A stretch of 38,985 bases of DNA from the NCBI GenBank assembly GCA_039182125.1, contig JBCDCH010000037.1, positions 1 through 38,985 of the forward strand, written 5' to 3'. Shown piece by piece: positions 1 to 9,479 of this stretch; positions within the stretch are counted from its first letter, which is position 1, and every line of letters begins with the position of its first letter. Below the pieces are notes generated by a model. It searched no databases. It was not told where the DNA came from and saw only the letters and a list, made by a program, of their open reading frames with translations. A program made the translations under genes and the position numbers. This DNA is from Planctomycetota bacterium (GTDB lineage: Bacteria > Planctomycetota > Phycisphaerae > Tepidisphaerales > Tepidisphaeraceae).

Positions 1-254
1 GTAGCCAGCCTTCGAATAAGACGGTCTTGAGCGCTTTGCACAGCTCCGACTCGTCGATCTCCACCTTGCTGGAGTACACCCGCGGCGGCAAGCCTACACG
101 ACGGGGCTTCAAGAAGGGCATTTTCACCACGCTGAGCTACTTCATGGCCCACGAGACCCACCACCGCGGCCGGGTGCTTCTTACGCTCAAGGTCAGCGGC
201 AACACGCTCGACAAGAAGACCCAAATGGCGATCTGGGGATGGGATCAGATCTGA
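1..254 (+). CDS. DinB-family protein, C-terminal fragment
   Basis: The reading frame is open from the window edge (codons from base 3) to TGA at 254, so this is the last 83 or so residues of a gene that starts outside the window. The segment FMAHETHHRGRVLLTLKVSG is the classic end of the DinB/YfiT four-helix bundle, in which the HExxHRG histidines contribute to the metal site; the following AIWGWD also fits the family ending. DinB-fold proteins are often metal-dependent thiol transferases or stress proteins, but the substrate here cannot be told. A TTG at 27 is only an internal codon and not needed as a start. Confidence 0.8.
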   Translation, partial: SQPSNKTVLSALHSSDSSISTLLEYTRGGKPTRRGFKKGIFTTLSYFMAHETHHRGRVLLTLKVSGNTLDKKTQMAIWGWDQI

Positions 255-304
255 AGGCGATGGCCGGGCTGCGGGGTGAGTGTTGCCTCGCGGGTCAACA
301 CCCA

Positions 305-1159
305 TCACCGCTTCTCGCGGAACTCGTACGGCGTGGCGTGCTCGACGTGTTCGAGGAAGTCAGCTTTGTAAGCCGCGGCGATTGCCGGCTTGCCCTTGAT
401 GACCAGCAGGTTCTCCGCGTTGTCTTTCTCGGCGGCTTCGCTGAAGTTGAAGCTCCCGGTGATGACCGTCGCATCATCGACGATGATGACCTTGTTGTGC
501 TGGATCTTGTGGGCCGTGTCTACCAGCGTCGTGATGCCCGCGTTGTCGAAGTACCTCGCGTCCGAGTACCCGGCTTGCGCTCCGTCGACGTCGACAACGA
601 TTGTCACGGTGACGCCCCGCTCGTGCGCGTTGCTGAGTGCCGCGGCAATGGGCTTGCTAGTTAGGCGATAGGCCAGCACGTCGACACTTTCGGCCGCGCC
701 GTTGATCTCTTTCACGATTGCGGCCGTGCAGCCGCCGTGTGGCGAAAAGAGCACGGCTACCCCGTCCTCGGTGGCCGACTTCTCTGCGGCCCGCATCTCG
801 GCTTGCCGCTGCTCAATGAACTCTTTCATCCGCCGATCGCGTTCTCGCTTCTCGGCTTCCTCGCGTTTGCGTTGCTCCTCCGCCTGCCGGCGCTCCTCCG
901 CACGTTGACGGTCTCGCTCAGCCTGGCCGTCCGATCGCTGGCCGAAGCTGTTGCCCGGCGTCCGCGGCGGACTGGCGGTACCCGGCCGGCACACGCTACA
1001 GGTGCCGCCTTGCTTCGCGCAGTGCTTGCACCCAGTGCAGTTCTTACACGCCGAGCACGCACCACCGTTGCACCCACGGGCGGCGGCGGTCGGCTCAAGC
1101 GGTGCGGGAGCCGCGGCGAACAGCAACAATGTCAGCACGACGATGAGGTGCCTTCCCAT
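305..1159 (-). CDS. secreted phospholipase D-like nuclease with Cys-rich and coiled-coil N-terminus
   Basis: 284 residues from the ATG at 1159, chosen because it begins directly with a signal peptide (MGRHLIVVLTLLLFAAAPA); the frame stays open upstream but that part reads like noise. Order of parts: signal peptide about 1-27; eight cysteines at 30, 35, 38, 41, 44, 47, 54 and 57, mostly CxxC-spaced, which could bind metal or form disulfides; a Glu/Arg/Gln-rich coiled coil about 76-128; then a single PLD domain about 133-275. The HKD motif is complete (H221, K223, D228) and is followed by GSFNFS at 235-240, as in Nuc-type PLD endonucleases, which work as dimers. Likely an exported phosphodiesterase acting on nucleic acid or phospholipid. 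It is the last gene of a minus-strand group of small membrane proteins. The PLD fold is clear; substrate and location are inference. Confidence 0.85.
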   Translation of the reverse strand: MGRHLIVVLTLLLFAAAPAPLEPTAAARGCNGGACSACKNCTGCKHCAKQGGTCSVCRPGTASPPRTPGNSFGQRSDGQAERDRQRAEERRQAEEQRKREEAEKRERDRRMKEFIEQRQAEMRAAEKSATEDGVAVLFSPHGGCTAAIVKEINGAAESVDVLAYRLTSKPIAAALSNAHERGVTVTIVVDVDGAQAGYSDARYFDNAGITTLVDTAHKIQHNKVIIVDDATVITGSFNFSEAAEKDNAENLLVIKGKPAIAAAYKADFLEHVEHATPYEFREKR

Positions 1160-1224
1160 TCGGAAAAGTGTCGACGCCGACCCCTCCCGGTGCAAGTGCC
1201 TGAAAAGGCGATAGCCCGCCGTGG

Positions 1225-1323
1225 TCACAGTCGATCCAGCAAGCCATGCAACAACTGGCCGGCGATGCCGCCAACCGTGGCGATGACGAACGCGATCAAG
1301 ATGGCCTGTTGCAGCGTGTCCAT
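1225..1323 (-). CDS. possible 32-residue membrane peptide
   Basis: A short frame starting MDTLQQAILIAFVIATVGG that is one hydrophobic helix with a charged, Leu-rich end. It lies 65 bases upstream of the PLD-like gene on the same strand. The ribosome site is weak (GGGAT about 8 bases before ATG). It could be a real single-span small protein, a toxin-like peptide, or chance. The frame is open further upstream but that part is Arg/Cys-rich and does not look coding. Confidence 0.3.
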   Translation of the reverse strand: MDTLQQAILIAFVIATVGGIAGQLLHGLLDRL

Positions 1324-1436
1324 GACTGCGGTTATCCCGCATGACCGTCGTCGTTGCAAACGTCTGCACCGACCCGCGCAGCAAAACGCCCCGGCAAGCC
1401 GCAGGGTGCGACCGGCCGGGGCGGGAACCAAGGGTA

Positions 1437-1682
1437 CTAGGAGCTCGACGTCGGGATTCCCGAATCGTCGGTCACCAAGTGTGCGACGTCAGGCTTTTTG
1501 CCGTAGCGATCGATGTAAGTAGGCGCAGCCGCCGCGGCACCTACCACACATGCAACGAGACCGAGAGCTGCAACCTCAAAAAGCACAGCGGAGGCAGCCA
1601 AGACTAAAGCAACCGCCAGCGCAGGGATTCCTAACGCTCGGAGGAGCTTTGTGGTGCTCTTCTTGATCATCATAACCGTCAT
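1437..1682 (-). CDS. small membrane protein, unknown function
   Basis: 81 residues from the ATG at 1682, chosen because AGGA lies 8 bases before it; an ATG three codons earlier (1691) abuts the AGG directly. After a basic N-terminus (MIKKSTTKLLR) there is one long hydrophobic stretch rich in Ala, Val and Leu, which could form one long or two short helices, and then a polar tail of about 27 residues. No family recognised. It lies between a four-span membrane protein and the PLD-like gene, all on the minus strand, so the genes may be co-expressed. Codon use is less GC-extreme than in the window's housekeeping genes. Confidence 0.5.
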   Translation of the reverse strand: MTVMMIKKSTTKLLRALGIPALAVALVLAASAVLFEVAALGLVACVVGAAAAAPTYIDRYGKKPDVAHLVTDDSGIPTSSS

Positions 1683-1777
1683 ATCGCACATCCTAGCGTG
1701 CTCTTGAGTGAAAAATCGAGGGGAAAATCAAAAAATCCGCCGAAATTCGCTTGACAAATTTCGTGTTATTATTTTGT

Positions 1778-2215
1778 TCACTGCCTACACAGGTAGCTCA
1801 TCCAAATAAGCAATGAAAGTCCAAGCAACGTCCCTAGGACGAGACGCTTTGAAAGCTTTTGCTCTGGCTCGCAAAGCTCCTTTCGGTCCTGAACGTCTGA
1901 CAAGAGGACAAAATAGAACACGAGGCAGAGGAAGCATGCCACGAACACTGATGTACCGGACGGGCCAGCAGGGGCAACTGCACCAGCAGCCGGCGCCGGA
2001 GAAGAAACAGCCCGAAAAAGGCTGGGCAGACCCAGCCCGAGACTGGCAATGCACAAATCTGGGCCGGCATAGAAATAGCATGGGTACCAATGCCGGACAC
2101 CGGAAAGCAATTTCCTGACGATGGTGGTAATGACCAAAATGCCTGCAGGGATCCCGCATGTCGCGACGTATGGCCGCCAATCAATGCTGTTGAAGAGTGT
2201 AATCCAGTCGCCCAT
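1778..2215 (-). CDS. four-span membrane protein, unknown function
   Basis: 145 residues with about four hydrophobic segments: near residues 16-36, 53-70, 88-106 and 126-143. Charged loops separate the last two (DVQDRKELCEPEQKLSKR), as expected of a real membrane protein. No family recognised. Base composition is visibly lower in GC than the flanking genes, and the gene is first in a minus-strand run towards the PLD-like nuclease. Low GC, an orphan sequence and closeness to the 3' end of tRNA-Ala suggest horizontally acquired DNA. The 95 bases between it and the next gene are AT-rich. The start is supported only weakly by a GC-rich purine stretch. Confidence 0.55.
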   Translation of the reverse strand: MGDWITLFNSIDWRPYVATCGIPAGILVITTIVRKLLSGVRHWYPCYFYAGPDLCIASLGLGLPSLFRAVSSPAPAAGAVAPAGPSGTSVFVACFLCLVFYFVLLSDVQDRKELCEPEQKLSKRLVLGTLLGLSLLIWMSYLCRQ

Positions 2216-2351
2216 CCCGGCTCATGGTGTGTACGCAATATCTGGTGTCAAGCGGGGAAATCTTCCATTTCAGCCCCTAAATGGGGGTTTTTGCCGCAAA
2301 ATGCCCCCGCACTGAGAGCTAGGGTGGACACCCTATTTGACACCCAAACCG

Positions 2352-2471
2352 TGCGCAACAGTGCGCAGCTATGCGCGGCGGTGCCGAGTAACCCCGACGC
2401 CCGAACACACATAAACCCCAGCGTGTGCTGGGGTTTATGCGCCGCAATGCGCGACAATGCGTTTCGGTGCC
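2352..2471. repeat. two blocks of three phased TGCGC repeats around a hairpin
   Basis: TGCGC occurs at 2352, 2362 and 2372, exactly 10 bases apart, followed by CGGTGCC ending at 2385. The same layout returns at 2438, 2448 and 2458 (the last as TGCGT), followed by CGGTGCC ending at 2471. Each block is 34 bases, and by eye they match at about 25 of 34 positions. The perfect hairpin 2410-2439 lies between them and shares its last two bases with the second block. One-helical-turn spacing is typical of protein-binding arrays. The block lies 16 bases from the tRNA-Ala 3' end. No gene is credible in 2216-2486. Confidence 0.6.
2410..2439. terminator. perfect 13-bp inverted repeat beside tRNA-Ala
   Basis: CATAAACCCCAGC and its exact complement are separated by GTGT. 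It lies 48 bases beyond the 3' end of tRNA-Ala in the direction of its transcription, so it may end that transcript. There is no clear T-tract on the minus-strand side (TGTGTTCGGG follows), so it may instead be part of the surrounding repeat element. Confidence 0.45.
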
Positions 2472-2486
2472 GGTTAGGCGTTTGCA

Positions 2487-2557
2487 TGGAGCTACCGGGA
2501 TTTGAACCCGGAATACCACCATGCCATGGTGGCGTGATCCCATTTCACTATAGCCCC
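2487..2557 (-). tRNA. tRNA-Ala (anticodon GGC)
   Basis: Full cloverleaf on the minus strand: acceptor GGGGCTA with TAGCTCC including the G3-U70 wobble pair that marks alanine tRNAs, D-stem GTGA/TCAC, anticodon stem CCACC/GGTGG around loop ATGGCAT (anticodon GGC), T-arm CCGGG-TTCAAAT-CCCGG, and discriminator A. CCA is not encoded. The downstream side carries the phased repeat block and accessory genes, a common layout at tRNA integration sites. Confidence 0.95.
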
Positions 2558-2596
2558 GGTGGGGATTTCGTCGCAGCAGCACTGCGGCGGGTCAGG

Positions 2597-2624
2597 ATCA
2601 TAGGTCGGCTCTCGACGGCGTCAA
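2597..2624 (-). promoter_or_regulatory. sigma-70-type promoter of tRNA-Ala
   Basis: On the minus strand TTGACG (2624-2619) and TATGAT (2602-2597) are separated by 16 bases; each box differs from consensus at one position. Transcription would start near 2590, about 33 bases before the mature tRNA 5' end. Confidence 0.65.
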
Positions 2625-2641
2625 TGGCCAGTTTTCCCGGC

Positions 2642-4534
2642 TCACACGGCCGCGGCTTCCATCGGGGGATGGGCGGCGTCGTTGGGGCGACGGCCGGGAA
2701 GGCGGATGGCCACCAGGGTCAGGTCGTCTTCGTGCTCGACACTACCCGCGAAGCGGTCCACCGCCGCCACCGCCCCGTCGGCCAGGGCACGTGGATCGTC
2801 GACATCGATGGGCAGATCCCTGACGAACTTGTCCAGATCGTACCGCTCACCGGCGTCGTTGGCCGCCTCGATGACGCCGTCGGTGTAGATGATCATCGAC
2901 CGACAATCGTTGGACAGGTCATGCACGGTCGTGGGGAAGTCCAAGTCGTCATCGACACCGAGAACGAGCTGCGCGTCGATTTCGAGTTCGTGGTAGCGGC
3001 GGGTGCCGGTGGCGTTGTCGCCTGCCCCGTCCAAATCGCAGACCAGCGGCGCGTGGTGGCCGGCGGAGGCGATCTCGATGGTCTCGGCCTGCGTGTCGAT
3101 CGCGCACAGGAGCATCGTGACGAACTGACCGCCGTAGACCTGGGTGCAGAGTTGCGTGTTGACCTCGGCCATGCATTTGCCGACGTCGCCGCCGATGTCG
3201 GGGCGGGCCATGGTGGTGCGGACGAGCAACTGCGTGGTGGCCATGAGGAACGCCGCCGCCATGCCGTGGCCGGTGACGTCGCCGATGACGATGATCACGC
3301 GGCCGTCACCCAATTCGAACCAGTTGTAGAAGTCGCCGGAGATGTGGCTGGCCGGCGTGTTGACGGCGGCGATTTCGATGCCGGCGATCTCGGCGTCGGC
3401 TTGGGGAAGCCATTTGAGTTGGATGCCGCGAGCCTGGTCGAGCTCTTCCTCGACGCGCTGCAGTTCGCGGTCGAGCATCTCGGTGCGCAGGCGTTCGAGC
3501 TTGCCCCGGCCGCGGATGGCCGTCACCGCCGTCGAAAGCAGGATCGCCACCATCGCCACAACGACGAACAGCGCCCAGAGGACGGTCCCGCCGAAGGTCT
3601 CGCGCACCACCGAGTCGACCCCCGCCAAGTCGCGGGTCATTGCCAGCGACCACACCTGATCCCCCACGCGGACCGGGTAAATCGTGATCATCGCCCCGGG
3701 CATGGTTTCGCCGCCAAGGCTCACCGGCTCGCGGACGACCGAGCCGAAGATCGCCCCGCCCTGGCGCGCCTGAGCGAAGAGTCGTTCGACCTCGCCGCTC
3801 TTGGTCGCCGAGAGGAAGTTCATCCCCTTGAGCTCGGGGTCGGCCGCATCGAGGATGATGCCCTGATCGTTGATCAGCGACGCACCGATCGCACCGTCAG
3901 CGCTGATGGGCTGGAGGAACCGCTGTCGCAACTCCGCGAGACGCACCAGCGAGATCAGGTGGTAGCGTTGATCGCTGCCGGCCGGGACGGCGACGAGCGA
4001 GAACGTTTCTTCAGTGCCGGGCAAGCGCAACGGCGAGGTCACGCGCGGCTCGTCGATCCCTTCGAGCTGCGGGGCCGCCCTGTCGATCAGGCCGCGGATC
4101 TGTGCCGAGCGCCCGAACCGTTCGGGAAACACGCGCAGAAACCGGTCGGTCACCGTGTCCATCACGATCAGGCCGGAGGTGCGGTCCTGTAACTGCAACC
4201 ACATCGGGCTGCTCAGTGCAAAGACCTCGGCCCGGTCGGTGGCGGCCTGGGGAGCGCGATCACGCAGCCGCCCGGGGATCACCGGCCGGCCCTCCTCTTC
4301 GGCACGCCGGAGCAGATTCAGGTTTTCGGAAATGCCAGCGAAGAAATCTTCGAGCCCGGCGGCGGTCTGGCGGGCGATGAGGTTTTGCCGCGTGAGCGTG
4401 TCCTCCTCGGCCTGGAGGCGCGCGGTCAGATACACCTGCCGAGCGCCCAGCGTCACCACGCCCACCACGACGATCAACAAGATCACGTGAAGTGCGAGGA
4501 TGCGGCGGACATAGCGGCGGGTGTCTTGGTCCAT
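2642..4534 (-). CDS. membrane-anchored sensor PP2C/SpoIIE-type serine/threonine phosphatase
   Basis: 630 residues. One membrane span at about 12-32, an extracytoplasmic sensor region at about 35-310 of the kind seen in dCACHE-type receptors, a second span at about 317-340, a short coiled linker (350-375), and a SpoIIE/RsbU phosphatase domain from about 378 to the end. Metal-binding motifs are intact: SGDFY at 399-403, GDVTGHGMAAAF from 418, YTDGVIEA, and the late HEDDLTLV. Such proteins dephosphorylate anti-sigma-factor antagonists in partner-switching pathways; no antagonist or anti-sigma gene is visible nearby, so the target is unknown. The upstream 120 bases show no strong ribosome site. 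Confidence 0.9.
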   Translation of the reverse strand: MDQDTRRYVRRILALHVILLIVVVGVVTLGARQVYLTARLQAEEDTLTRQNLIARQTAAGLEDFFAGISENLNLLRRAEEEGRPVIPGRLRDRAPQAATDRAEVFALSSPMWLQLQDRTSGLIVMDTVTDRFLRVFPERFGRSAQIRGLIDRAAPQLEGIDEPRVTSPLRLPGTEETFSLVAVPAGSDQRYHLISLVRLAELRQRFLQPISADGAIGASLINDQGIILDAADPELKGMNFLSATKSGEVERLFAQARQGGAIFGSVVREPVSLGGETMPGAMITIYPVRVGDQVWSLAMTRDLAGVDSVVRETFGGTVLWALFVVVAMVAILLSTAVTAIRGRGKLERLRTEMLDRELQRVEEELDQARGIQLKWLPQADAEIAGIEIAAVNTPASHISGDFYNWFELGDGRVIIVIGDVTGHGMAAAFLMATTQLLVRTTMARPDIGGDVGKCMAEVNTQLCTQVYGGQFVTMLLCAIDTQAETIEIASAGHHAPLVCDLDGAGDNATGTRRYHELEIDAQLVLGVDDDLDFPTTVHDLSNDCRSMIIYTDGVIEAANDAGERYDLDKFVRDLPIDVDDPRALADGAVAAVDRFAGSVEHEDDLTLVAIRLPGRRPNDAAHPPMEAAAV

Positions 4535-4654
4535 CGAAATACGGCTCGTCGCCTAAGATGCTAACGGAAGCGACACCGTTCCGCAGCGGCAGGCCCGCCC
4601 GGGGTTTCAGGAATATGGCCGACTAGCCCGTCTGGTCGCTTTTCTGCCCGGCAG

Positions 4655-5026
4655 TTACGCCGCGAGGGCACGGGTGGAAACTTTCCGCACCCCGCTCATT
4701 TGCTCCATGTCGGTCCGCTCCACGCCGATCGCGTATCCGCCGTGGTCCTCGATCTGCATCCGCCAAGCCACCCGGACCGGTCGCATGTCCACCCGTTGGG
4801 TCACGCCGGATTTTCCGTCGGCGACGTGCAGGAAGAGCTCCGCTCCGGGTTTGGCCGAGAACGTCGGCGGTACGACGAGCCGGAAACCACCCGACGACAC
4901 ATCGCGTACCCGGCACGGGTAGAACCGGGCCGATCGCTCATCGCAGAGCTTGGCCGGCAGGTCGGCCGCGTGCCGCGCACCGCCATCTCGACGGTCGCTC
5001 ACCGGGGACGATGGGAAGAGGTCCAT
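4655..5026 (-). CDS. PilZ-like domain protein
   Basis: 123 residues from ATG 5026. The core reads RSARFYPCRVRDVSSGGFRL: an Arg pair followed by DxSxxG (D42, S44, G47), the second half of the PilZ c-di-GMP-binding signature, then alternating beta strands ending GYAIGVERTDM as in PilZ barrels. The first signature half is reduced (RxxR rather than RxxxR), so c-di-GMP binding is likely but not certain. It is divergent from leuS with 75 bases between the starts. The frame is open far upstream as an artefact of overlap with leuS; the start was placed before leuS. Confidence 0.7.
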   Translation of the reverse strand: MDLFPSSPVSDRRDGGARHAADLPAKLCDERSARFYPCRVRDVSSGGFRLVVPPTFSAKPGAELFLHVADGKSGVTQRVDMRPVRVAWRMQIEDHGGYAIGVERTDMEQMSGVRKVSTRALAA

Positions 5027-5101
5027 GGACACGCACTGGGAGTATCGGCAAGCGAGCCGGGGGACTTTCATTCCGCGTGTCGCGGCTACGATCCCCGACC
5101 C

Positions 5102-7951
5102 ATGGCCTACAACCACACGACGGTCGAGCAGAAATGGCAAGCCTACTGGGACGAGCACGGCACCGACGCCGCCCTTGATCCCGAGCAGGCCAACGGTGCG
5201 CCCGGCGTGTATGTCCTGGACATGTTTCCCTACCCGTCCGGGGCGGGCCTGCACGTGGGCCATGTCGAGAACTACGCGGCCACCGACATCTACAGCCGCT
5301 ACCTCCGCATGCGCGGCTACAACGTCATGCACCCCACCGGCTTCGACGCCTTCGGCCTGCCCGCCGAGCAATACGCCATCAAGACCGGCAACCACCCCGC
5401 CGAGTTCACCCAGAAAAACATCCAGCACTTCATCGCCCAGACCAAACGCGTGGGCTTTTCCTACGACTGGGACCGCGTGGTCGACACGACCGAACCGAAG
5501 TACTTCAAGTGGACGCAGTGGATGTTCCTGCAGCTCTACAACAGCTACTTCGACCCGATCGACAACAAGGCAAAGCCGATCGAGGAACTGCGCAACGCCC
5601 TGCTCGCGGACAACCTCGTGATCGCGCCCGACGGGTCGCTCGTGGAGAACCCGACGCAGGAAGGCATGGAAGCGATCAGCGGCGTGGGGCATCTGTTCAC
5701 GCGTTTCACCGAACTGCCCGAGGACCAACAGCGGACCGTCATCGACGACCATCGCCTGGCGTACATCGCCGAGGTCCCGGTGAACTGGTGCCCGAAGCTC
5801 GGCACGGTGCTGGCCAACGAGGAAGTCATCGACGGCAAGAGCGAAGTGGGTGGCTTCCCCGTCGAACGCCGGCCGCTCAAGCAGTGGATGCTGCGCATCA
5901 CCGCCTACGCCGACCGGCTGCTTTCGGACCTGGACACGCTCGAATGGAGCGAGTCGCTCAAAACGATGCAGCGCGAGTGGATCGGCCGCAGCGAAGGCGC
6001 GGTCGTCGACTTCGACGTCGCCGGCGAACGGCCCGACGGAGCGACGATCAGCGTGTTCACCACCCGCCCGGACACGCTCTTCGGCGCGACCTACATGGTG
6101 CTCGCCCCCGAGCATCCACTGGTGGATCGGATCACCACGCCCGAGCAGAAAGCCGCCGTCGACGCGTACGTCAAGGAAGCCGCCGGCAAGAGCGAACGCG
6201 ACCGCCAGACCGAGACCAAAACCAAGACCGGCGTCTTCACCGGCGTCCACGCGGTCAACCCCGTCAACGGCCACGAGATCCCGATCTACGTCGCCGACTA
6301 CGTACTCATGGGCTACGGCACCGGCGCGATCATGGCTGTGCCCGCCCACGACCAGCGCGACTTCGAGTTCGCCACGCAGTTCGAGTTGCCGATCGTGCAG
6401 GTCGTCAAAGCGCCCGACAACTTCGACGCCGCCACGGCCGCCTACACCGGCGACGGCGTCGCGATCAACTCGCAGTTCCTCAACGGCAAGACCGTCGATG
6501 CCGCGAAGTCTGCGATGATCGACTGGCTGGAAGAGAACGATCACGGCCGACGGCGGGTGCAGTACAAGCTGCGTGATTGGCTCTTCTCACGTCAACGCTA
6601 CTGGGGCGAGCCGTTCCCGATCGTGTACGACGAACTCGGCAACCACCACGCCCTGCCCGAGTCGCACCTGCCCGTCGAGCTGCCGACACTGGAGGACTTC
6701 GAGCCCACCGGCGACCCGGCCGGCCCGCTGGTCAAAGCGAAGGACTGGCTCGACGTCGAGATCGACGGCAAGACCTATCGCCGCGAGACCAACACGATGC
6801 CGCAGTGGGCGGGCTCGTGCTGGTACTACCTGCGCTTCCTCGACCCGCACAACGACGAGACGTTCGCGACCAAGGAGAAGCAGGACTACTGGATGCCCGT
6901 CGACCTCTACGTCGGCGGCGTCGAGCACGCGGTCCTGCACCTGCTCTACGCGCGGTTCTGGCACAAAGTCCTCTTCGACCTCGGCCACGTCACCACCGCC
7001 GAGCCGTTCAAGCGGCTGGTCAACCAGGGGCTGATCCTCGGCGAGATGGAGTACCACCGCTTCGACGTGAGCGTCGATGAACTCAAGGACGTCAAGGAAG
7101 AAGCCTCCGACGGCGGCAAGCAGTTCGTCGGCTACCGCAAGGACAACGGCGAGCGCATGATCGCAACGCGCATCGACGCCGACGACGTCGACAAGGTCGG
7201 CAGCGACCACGTGCTCAAGTCCGACCCGAACCACAAGATCGACGCACGCAGCTTCAAGATGTCCAAGTCGCGCGGCAACGTCGCCGACCCCGACGTCATC
7301 ATCCGTGAGTACGGTGCCGACGCCCTGCGGCTTTACGTCATGTACCTCGGCCCGCTCGAACAGCAGAAGCCGTGGAACACCCGCGACATCATCGGAATGA
7401 CGCGCTTCCTCCGCAGCGTCCACCGCAATCTCGTCGGCGACGAGGAGAACAACGTCACCGCGACGATCGAGAAGACCGACGTCCCCGACGAACTCGACCG
7501 GCAACTCCACAAGGCGACCGCGAAAGTTCAGGACGACCTGGAGCATCTCCGCTTCAACACCGCCATCGCGGAGTTGATCAAACTCAACAACGCTTTCGGC
7601 AAGCTGGATGTCATTCCCCACGCCGCGGCGGAGCGGTTCGTGAAGCTGCTCGCCCCCTTCGCGCCCCACCTGGCCGAGGAGCTTTACCGTGCGCTGGGCT
7701 TCACCGAGACCGTCACCCGCGCGCCGTGGCCGAGCTACGACAAAGCCAAACTCAAGGACGCGAGCATCGAGATCCCGGTGCAGGTGCTGGGCAAACTGCG
7801 GGACAAGATCACCATCGACGCCGAAGCCGGCAAGGATGCGACACTCGCTGCCGCCCGCGGGGCCGAGAAGGTCGCCCCGCTGCTCGAAGGCAAGACGGTC
7901 GTGAAGGAGATCTACGTCCCGGGGCGGCTGGTGAATTTTGTGGTGAAGTGA
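5102..7951 (+). CDS. leuS: leucyl-tRNA synthetase
   Basis: 949 residues. Charges tRNA-Leu with leucine in the cytoplasm. The class I motifs are complete: MFPYPSGAGLHVGH with the HIGH-type box at 51-54, and KMSKS at 719-723. The editing (CP1) domain is present with TTRPDTLFGATY and the downstream GYGTGAIMAVPAHDQRD loop that holds the conserved Asp. The tRNA-binding anticodon domain follows KMSKS. A charged insert of about 50 residues (including VKEEASDGGKQFVGYRKDNG) lies just before KMSKS, as in other large bacterial LeuRS. The ATG at 5102 gives the usual MAYNHTTVEQKWQ beginning; the longer open frame upstream overlaps the divergent PilZ-like gene and is not coding. Confidence 0.98.
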   Translation: MAYNHTTVEQKWQAYWDEHGTDAALDPEQANGAPGVYVLDMFPYPSGAGLHVGHVENYAATDIYSRYLRMRGYNVMHPTGFDAFGLPAEQYAIKTGNHPAEFTQKNIQHFIAQTKRVGFSYDWDRVVDTTEPKYFKWTQWMFLQLYNSYFDPIDNKAKPIEELRNALLADNLVIAPDGSLVENPTQEGMEAISGVGHLFTRFTELPEDQQRTVIDDHRLAYIAEVPVNWCPKLGTVLANEEVIDGKSEVGGFPVERRPLKQWMLRITAYADRLLSDLDTLEWSESLKTMQREWIGRSEGAVVDFDVAGERPDGATISVFTTRPDTLFGATYMVLAPEHPLVDRITTPEQKAAVDAYVKEAAGKSERDRQTETKTKTGVFTGVHAVNPVNGHEIPIYVADYVLMGYGTGAIMAVPAHDQRDFEFATQFELPIVQVVKAPDNFDAATAAYTGDGVAINSQFLNGKTVDAAKSAMIDWLEENDHGRRRVQYKLRDWLFSRQRYWGEPFPIVYDELGNHHALPESHLPVELPTLEDFEPTGDPAGPLVKAKDWLDVEIDGKTYRRETNTMPQWAGSCWYYLRFLDPHNDETFATKEKQDYWMPVDLYVGGVEHAVLHLLYARFWHKVLFDLGHVTTAEPFKRLVNQGLILGEMEYHRFDVSVDELKDVKEEASDGGKQFVGYRKDNGERMIATRIDADDVDKVGSDHVLKSDPNHKIDARSFKMSKSRGNVADPDVIIREYGADALRLYVMYLGPLEQQKPWNTRDIIGMTRFLRSVHRNLVGDEENNVTATIEKTDVPDELDRQLHKATAKVQDDLEHLRFNTAIAELIKLNNAFGKLDVIPHAAAERFVKLLAPFAPHLAEELYRALGFTETVTRAPWPSYDKAKLKDASIEIPVQVLGKLRDKITIDAEAGKDATLAAARGAEKVAPLLEGKTVVKEIYVPGRLVNFVVK

Positions 7952-8025
7952 TCCCCCTCGACGGCGTAGTGGCCGGGCTACTGTCTCCACTTCACCCATC
8001 AGCACTCCCACTTCAACTCCCCAAT

Positions 8026-8589
8026 ATGCCCGTAGAAATCGAAGCCAAGATGCGTGCCCCGGACCTCGACGCGGCCCGCGGCAAACTCCGGGACGCCGGC
8101 GCGACCCGCCTCGGCGAGGTCATGGAGACCAACATGTTCTTCGACACCGAGGACCGTGAACTCACCGCCGGCGACAACGGCCTGCGCCTGCGCCGCAAGA
8201 AGACCGAGAACGGCACCGAGAAGTTCGTCGTCACCTTCAAGGGGCCACGCATCAACAGCGAGATCAAGCAGCGCGAGGAGTTGGAGTTTGGCGTCACCGA
8301 CGGCCCGGCCTCGCGAAAGCTCTTCGAAAAGCTCGGGTTCAAGATGATGCTCTGCTTCGAGAAGCTCCGCGAATCGTGGACCTTCGCCGGCTGCACCGTC
8401 GAACTCGACACCCTCCCGCACATCGGCACCTTCGTCGAGATCGAGGGACCCGACGAGCAAACCGTGCTCGACACCCGCAGCAAACTTGGCTTCGACGACC
8501 TGCCCCTGGTCAACGTCGCCTACAGCGCGATGGTCCACGACCACCTGCGGGAAACCGAGCCCGGCAAAAGAGAACTCGTCTTCGAATAG
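8026..8589 (+). CDS. CYTH-domain protein (class IV adenylate cyclase / triphosphatase type)
   Basis: 187 residues. It starts MPVEIEAKMR, which carries the diagnostic ExExK motif (E4, E6, K8). Further tunnel residues fit the family: GLRLRRKK, a VVTFKGPR strand, KQREELEFGV and the late FVEIEGPDE. CYTH enzymes form a beta-tunnel that binds triphosphates with divalent metal; members make cAMP, or cleave thiamine triphosphate or tripolyphosphate. The sequence is closest in look to the CyaB group, but activity cannot be predicted. It lies 74 bases after leuS in the same direction and converges with the next gene, with 11 bases between stops. Confidence 0.88.
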   Translation: MPVEIEAKMRAPDLDAARGKLRDAGATRLGEVMETNMFFDTEDRELTAGDNGLRLRRKKTENGTEKFVVTFKGPRINSEIKQREELEFGVTDGPASRKLFEKLGFKMMLCFEKLRESWTFAGCTVELDTLPHIGTFVEIEGPDEQTVLDTRSKLGFDDLPLVNVAYSAMVHDHLRETEPGKRELVFE

Positions 8590-8600
8590 CTTGTCTCGGT

Positions 8601-9479
8601 TCAGGACTTTTGCTGGTGGACCCACACGGCACGGTCGTGGATCTTGTCGGTCGGCGGGCGATCGAAGATGAAATCGTCGAGTTTGATCACGCCGGACTGA
8701 CCGCCCACCTCGTACGCCATCCGGCTCACGCCCTTCTTTTCCCAACGCTCGTCGTCGATGTCCGTGATCGCCGAGAGGGGCACGGGCGGATGGCCGGCGA
8801 CGTGCAAGGTGTCGTTCTCGTCGAGCCGAACCTCACTGCGGGCGGCCCACAACGTCCAGCCGATCAGCGCCAACCCACCGACCGGGAGTAGGAAGCCGAG
8901 CAGGATCTGCGCCCGGATGCTCGTGTCGGAGTGGCGGTCGCCCAGCTCGCGCAGTTCCAGGCGATATGCATCCTCCGCGTCCGTGTCCAAGTCAAGCTTC
9001 GCCTGATCAGCCAGCTCGTTGAGTTCGTCGATGCGCTCGTTCTCGGCCGGGTAGCCGATGAACCCGTCATAAGCGAACCAACCCCCGCCGGCGATGAGCA
9101 GCAGGCCGAAGACGATCCACTTCCCGTTGAAGAACCTGTTGGGCTTGGCCGTGATCGGGCCGCCTTCGGGGATGACGTTTTCCTCCTCGGTAGCCTCGCC
9201 CTCGTCGGACGGTTCGGCCGGCGCTTGTTCGGGCGCTTGATCCCGTGGCTCGTCCGTCGTGGCGTCGGTCTTGGCTGCGTCCGTGTCCTGGTCGGTCATG
9301 TCACTACCCGGGGTTGCCCGGTCGGTACCGGGAGGCTGAAGTCTGTGGGCCACATCCCGCAGCGATGCCACGACGGCGTCCGCGAGCGGATCACCGGCAT
9401 CGCCCAGCCGGCGGGCCATGTCCGACGCCGTCCGAATCGCCCGTTGCACCTCTGCATCGGTCAAATCGTCGGCCGGCAT
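8601..9479 (-). CDS. two-span membrane protein, unknown function
   Basis: 292 residues. The first 60 are helical and polar, followed by an acidic, disordered region rich in Asp, Glu, Ala and Pro (about 60-110). Two membrane spans follow (WIVFGLLLIAGGGWFAYDG near 120-140 and ILLGFLLPVGGLALIGWTLW near 195-215) separated by a charged, helical segment. The C-terminal 75 residues alternate in a beta-like pattern (VRLDENDTLHVAGHPPVPLS) and look like a small PH-like barrel, which is inference. An alternative start at 9299 (MTDQDTDAAKTD) would remove the N-terminal 60 residues. No family recognised. Confidence 0.7.
   Translation of the reverse strand: MPADDLTDAEVQRAIRTASDMARRLGDAGDPLADAVVASLRDVAHRLQPPGTDRATPGSDMTDQDTDAAKTDATTDEPRDQAPEQAPAEPSDEGEATEEENVIPEGGPITAKPNRFFNGKWIVFGLLLIAGGGWFAYDGFIGYPAENERIDELNELADQAKLDLDTDAEDAYRLELRELGDRHSDTSIRAQILLGFLLPVGGLALIGWTLWAARSEVRLDENDTLHVAGHPPVPLSAITDIDDERWEKKGVSRMAYEVGGQSGVIKLDDFIFDRPPTDKIHDRAVWVHQQKS

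Follow-up and report, generated by a model that had tools for sequence, protein, structure and literature searches.

A candidate P′ arm of an integrated element beside tRNA-Ala in a planctomycete, and the arm plan it shares with integrase relatives across Planctomycetota

In phage lambda, attP and attL carry arm-type sites for the integrase Int, designated P1, P2 and P′1-3. In mycobacteriophage BPs, the part of a protein altered on integration is reportedly the C-terminus of the repressor. The account of integration-dependent immunity in this phage, as far as its available text goes, has the att site within a gene, so that integration alters the encoded protein (PMC4557955). Closer in setting is attL of KplE1/HK620, with its integrase IntS and the factor TorI, which the accessible portions of two reports describe as formed by insertion in the tRNA gene argW and as carrying an array of sites for an accessory factor (PMC2951348, PMC3509656). 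Recombinases that disrupt their own gene were held to be exclusively archaeal in a 2021 review, to judge from the part of it that is available (PMC8371274).

The locus considered here is near the left end of the window, the whole stretch of 38,985 nucleotides that was analysed (contig C37 of a Planctomycetota genome, G000). Its best explanation, to which we give a probability of roughly 0.88, is that it is the P′ arm of attL of an element integrated at the 3′ end of a tRNA-Ala(GGC) gene by a lambda-like three-domain tyrosine integrase. The tRNA gene, called by ARAGORN and by Rfam RF00005, occupies 2487..2557 on the minus strand with its 3′ end at 2487. Along that strand, in the direction of tRNA transcription, it is followed by 15 bases, an inner array of 10-bp repeats (2438..2471), a perfect 13-bp hairpin with a 4-nt loop (2410..2439), an outer array of 10-bp repeats (2352..2385) that is 86 bp from the inner one, and a pair of 12-bp-spaced GGTGTC repeats (about 2321..2344, minus strand). 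Each 34-base array consists of four minus-strand sites, GCAYN6, at 10-bp spacing. In the whole genome (4.13 Mb) the pattern (GCAYN6)x4 has four matches, the reversed pattern used as a control having two, and all four are at two att sites, two in the window and two at tRNA-Ala(CGC) on contig C16, with both pairs offset by 86 bp. Triples of a 5-mer at 10-bp spacing number two in the window and average 0.05 in 20 dinucleotide shuffles. The original prediction had described two 34-base blocks, each with three phased TGCGC words and then CGGTGCC, around a hairpin 16 bases from tRNA-Ala. Both blocks and the hairpin are real; the second block reads TGCGC, TGCGC, TGCGT, the CGGTGCC contains a fourth site, the gap to the tRNA is 15 bases, and the GGTGTC pair had been missed altogether. 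Two other calls over this stretch were discarded, a permuted tmRNA from ARAGORN (2157-2579, over the tRNA-Ala and the block) that overlaps the tRNA and was taken as spurious, and a long plus-strand ORF through the block (2090-4192) that is antisense to a SpoIIE-type gene.

A DNA search of the same genome reveals related arms beside the tRNA-Ala(CGC) gene on C16 and beside tmRNA on contig C22, and these two and the window arm align through the core edge, the arrays and the hairpin. The C16 copy belongs to a complete element: the 3′ end of tRNA-Ala(CGC) recurs as a 29-bp direct repeat, at 47017-47045 and 63934-63962 on a single contig, and bounds 16.9 kb (C16:47046-63933). Among its genes are those for RecT, an AAA helicase/primase-like protein, a capsid protein, a tape-measure-like protein and, at the right end, a tyrosine integrase that exceeds the Pfam cut-off and ends just before attR. 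No terminase was seen among the ORFs of this element that were scanned, and the element is perhaps a satellite or a worn prophage. Just beyond its attR is a worn fourth arm (C16:63946-64093, locus L044 10947-11094; E 1.3e-6 with R1, a covariance model built from three sequences), as if an older element had left a remnant in the same tRNA. The P′ arm beside tmRNA (C22:12389-12514, L029) has one 10-bp unit fewer, with phase kept, and a worn outer array; a second copy of its core was not found in the 39 kb read. Further copies of the block, which had been suggested as something to look for beside other tRNA genes, are thus present at the second tRNA-Ala and, as the shortened arm, at tmRNA.

In other genomes the arm is missing where the tRNA is present. 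A DNA search of 41 genomes with block plus tRNA returned, outside its own genome, only tRNA matches and short low-scoring ones, and the arm is absent from all 19 tRNA-Ala(GGC) loci of other genomes that it returned, three of which have the same SpoIIE neighbor as the window; conservation of the block in relatives that lack the element, which would have pointed to a tRNA processing role, was not encountered. Several of these arm-free loci have, by eye, terminator-like hairpins of their own. The complete second element at tRNA-Ala(CGC), the further core copy on contig C55 described below and the 19 arm-free loci together point to the window block being a P′ arm, and so part of attL. The earlier view that the phased words resemble protein sites at a recombination site beside a tRNA is also upheld.

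The hairpin invites another explanation, in which the block would act as a structured RNA or in tRNA processing or termination and have no role in mobility. Three copies retain the hairpin, one pair being altered at both of its positions, and the other copies also adjoin structural RNA genes, tmRNA and tRNA-Ala(CGC); but the paired change is within what shuffles give (180/500), the block is absent at the equivalent tRNA in every one of the 19 loci, and the array plan accompanies att repeats and integrases. This reading is accordingly held to be very improbable. The consensus terminator scan did not call the hairpin 2410-2439, and a terminator-like hairpin occurs within the first 130 nt in 11 of 50 relatives compared with 1.55 in shuffles. 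That the hairpin of the P′ arm is a terminator, possibly a two-way one for the tRNA, that travels with the element is moderately supported.

The 3′ end of the window tRNA supplies the att core, a 20-bp exact direct repeat at 2487..2506 (minus strand), whose other copy is on a separate contig of the same genome, at C55:25811-25830; with the stretch extended, 24 of 25 bases agree. On C55 this 20 bp of the tRNA-Ala(GGC) 3′ end comes just past a terminal integrase that is 60 and 69% identical, in two pieces, to the C16 integrase and is split over two frames, through decay or an assembly error at the contig end. C37 starts inside the element and none of the contigs spans C37 to C55, and the repeat and the homology suggest that the missing far end of the window element is probably C55. 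There is some overlap at C55:25760-25844 with the end of another contig, C6:89556-89640 (85 bases, 91%), and the mismatches resemble the read errors of contig ends. C55 also encodes a D5-type primase and, at 1050-8765 (L042), an ORF of 2571 codons that is Rhs-like by eye. A tyrosine recombinase had been suggested as something to look for further left; a suitable integrase does exist, not on the window contig and probably at the far end of the element on C55. What the window would hold is then the left part of the element, 1..2486, cut by the contig start and including the P′ arm, with a putative membership of two minus-strand genes, one PLD-like (305-1327) and the other a small ORF with no Pfam match (1778-2215). 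On the other side of the tRNA is the host SpoIIE-type phosphatase gene (2642..4534, minus strand). Direct repeats in helical phase could also be plasmid-type iterons of a replication origin, as had been floated for these blocks, yet the arm abuts a tRNA core, its neighbors are the PLD-like gene, the small ORF, the tRNA and SpoIIE, with no initiator gene adjacent, and an equivalent plan adjoins integrases at many different tRNAs; the iteron reading is unsupported and, of those considered, the one given least credence.

Beyond this genome it is arrangement rather than sequence that persists. The R1 model, scanned against 61 genomes, gives matches at E 1 or better in 14, mostly of the hairpin only and resembling ordinary terminators; its only strong full-length match outside its own genome is in G010 (C293, E 4.3e-8), on a partial tmRNA that falls within the frame of an integrase. 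In 29 integrase loci it finds one good arm (L085, E 4e-5), and similarity at the level of letters is low; what is conserved is the plan and not the sequence. Relatives of the C16 integrase are present in 79 of 150 genomes of the class (E 1e-15). In 54 of the 69 relative loci that were read the integrase gene converges on the 3′ end of a tRNA or tmRNA, and nine have neither arrangement within the limits set. The remaining six (L094, L112, L135, L138, L141 and L142) have a whole tRNA downstream in the same sense, which may reflect another target position or a tRNA that is carried along.

With distances measured from the tRNA end, 50 non-redundant loci of the class show enrichment of lag-10 repeats at 0-60 bp (z 5.5, 6.1) and again at 80-120 bp (z 16.4, 10.7), none in the intervening 60-80 bp (z 0.3), and enrichment of lag-12 repeats at 120-180 bp (z 44.8, 18.8), where lag 11 is likewise raised (z 4.5, 11.3); these z values and those below are upper bounds because related sequences are counted separately. 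The window conforms, its arrays covering roughly 16-49 and 102-135 bp and its 12-bp repeats roughly 143-166 bp. A search of the phylum yielded 29 further loci, 22 of them outside the class, of which 17 with a convergent tRNA were used and five lacking one were dropped. The plan is replicated in these 17 (z 5.2, 7.0, 25.5), with lags 8, 9, 11, 13 and 14 near zero. The neighboring coding DNA and the DNA beyond the tRNA of the same loci have no 10-bp signal (z 0.9, 0.5). Element by element the signals are not universal: the inner 10-bp repeat is present in 38, the outer 10-bp repeat in 39 and the 12-bp repeat in 53 of 67; the named relatives are metagenome-assembled genomes of Phycisphaerales and Planctomycetota.

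Which protein binds which repeat bears directly on how such an arm would work. The predicted structure of the integrase (pLDDT 91.5) has an N-terminal domain, residues 2-60, of three strands plus a helix, and its top match among solved structures by Foldseek is lambda Int, 1z1b; no Pfam arm-binding domain matches it. The 12-bp unit is in both arms of three of the five elements examined (the C16 sibling, G059 and G074_1), the P-arm copies being about 60-77 bp from the core, and the C16 sibling has it twice in the P arm and three times in the P′ arm. It is weak in the P arm of C55, and G074_2 has no shared 12-bp word. In G074 a tRNA-Ser 3′ end occurs three times, always in the same orientation (C1:3872357, 3913118 and 3937953; L189-L191), probably from two elements in tandem. 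Similarity of repeat units was compared with that of the N-terminal domain, given the catalytic domain, by a Mantel procedure in which kinship is controlled only through the catalytic domain. For the 12-bp unit, with 53 elements past the repeat-quality cut of 69 offered, the partial r is 0.22 and is reached in 0 of 500 permutations. For the outer 10-bp unit (49 elements) it is 0.03 (93/500), which is no covariation, and for the inner (52 elements) 0.06 (64/500), which is hardly any; the absence of covariation may be noise, these units being degenerate. Since they covary with the N-terminal domain and recur in both arms, the 12-bp repeats are better candidates for arm-type sites than the 10-bp words, and we think it reasonably probable that they are the arm-type sites and that the 10-bp arrays are sites for another factor.

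The reverse allocation, in which the 10-bp arrays are the integrase arm-type sites and the 12-bp repeats serve another purpose, is what the original prediction favored. It has in its support that each block sets its four sites exactly in phase with the helix, and that arm-type sites are about 10 bp in known systems, such as the TGKTGGTATC consensus given in the accessible text on ICEMlSymR7A (PMC11963761). It is nevertheless probably wrong and is rated as rather unlikely, as recurrence in both arms (in three of five elements) and N-terminal domain covariation belong to the 12-bp and not to the 10-bp repeats. A stronger contender, though one put at somewhat below even chances, is that the arrays are cooperative excisionase sites on attL. 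The available text on KplE1 attL, with its five cooperative TorI sites, offers a precedent (PMC3509656), and the arrays are between the core and the 12-bp repeats with one site per turn. Against it, an excisionase gene was not recognized in the C16 or C55 elements by a scan with one motif and a Pfam search of eight ORFs. With the P′ arm of attL as the reading retained, the catalytic domains of the integrase would hold the core and its N-terminal domains the 12-bp repeats in both arms, with the 10-bp arrays seating, at each helical turn, an accessory protein that is either an excisionase or a factor that bends DNA. This protein may fold the arm back onto the core. The hairpin would serve to end transcription of the tRNA once insertion has displaced the native downstream DNA.

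Convergent relatives present a different situation with respect to coding. The integrase frame is open through the arm in 48 of the 52 loci with a whole tRNA, compared with eight and six for the other frames, and it enters the tRNA antisense in 50 of 54 loci of the class and 16 of 17 outside it, the catalytic domain being whole. Direct repeats were obtained for 15 of 22 integrases, namely 13 of 20 in one convergent set (for the other seven none was found within the stretch examined), plus G059 (tRNA-Asn, 28-bp repeat, 39.3 kb) and G074 (tRNA-Ser, 63-bp repeat, 24.8 kb). Across the predicted circle junction, the integrase frame continues past the core into the P-arm side, and in 11 of the 15 elements the frame so read ends in a shared module, W..LP..[VIA][RK]. 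G115 has a look-alike that would be a twelfth, and the module was not seen in G087, G176 and G198. As to specificity, in the 13 elements of the convergent set the motif is in nine of 78 frames, and all nine are integrase frames. Pfam does not match the module in the three tails checked.

A profile of the eleven tails picks out four loci (L115, L139, L155 and L236, a viral contig) where a natural, uncut ORF encodes the integrase together with the module. In L139 the module precedes its tRNA and L115 and L155 have no tRNA arm, so these three are no proof of an embedded attP; a frame running through a core that resembles a tRNA 3′ end, between integrase and module, was seen only in L236 (3001-4465). 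A scan of viral contigs with the G036 integrase gave no match, and plasmid and phage records yielded only distant integrases of <60% identity. In the convergent relatives (L080-L148 and L160-L188) attP thus appears to be inside the integrase gene, with integration swapping its tail. In the window and C16 type, the integrase gene occupies the opposite arm and ends short of the core; the arrays have been retained there despite being non-coding, an argument for their acting as DNA.

On balance we favor, with modest confidence, a broader proposal for a large family of Planctomycetota integrases. The whole attP, comprising 12-bp sites, 10-bp arrays and core, would be coding, and integration would remove a conserved C-terminal module, W..LPE.VR..I..LV, and leave the host tRNA, read antisense, to provide a short tail and a stop. 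The free and integrated forms would then constitute a built-in switch between integration and excision, and the window would be a variant whose integrase has moved to the other arm, with a non-coding P′ arm in which arrays and hairpin are kept as DNA signals. Should activity differ between the two C-terminal forms, gene structure itself could set directionality. From two short repeats one is led to a fixed, phylum-wide layout of att arms, in bacteria where mobile elements seem to have received little attention, and that layout leads in turn to bacterial integrases with the attachment site in their own gene, at odds with the archaea-only view in the available part of the 2021 review (PMC8371274).

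In the literature searched, which left most subscription papers outside, no account was found of the arm plan or of an attP embedded in an integrase gene in bacteria. The attL arm is of a new design, and the system to which it belongs is of a known kind. The likeness to lambda is in the three-domain tyrosine integrase and, for the C16 sibling, in a core plus repeats in both arms; what differs here is the presence of extra 10-bp P′ arrays flanking a hairpin, cores from tRNA 3′ ends, and an arm that is coding in most relatives. With KplE1/HK620 the window element shares insertion in a tRNA gene and a putative array of accessory sites on attL, whereas KplE1 attL overlaps the integrase promoter. 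In BPs it is the repressor gene that has the att site, and in the convergent relatives it is the integrase gene. In this last respect the convergent relatives resemble the suicidal integrases of archaea (SSV1, pTN3 and pT26-2), which, as far as the available text goes, have attP in the integrase gene and have that gene cut by integration (PMC8371274), but the hosts here are bacterial, the catalytic domain is intact, and only a C-terminal module is lost.
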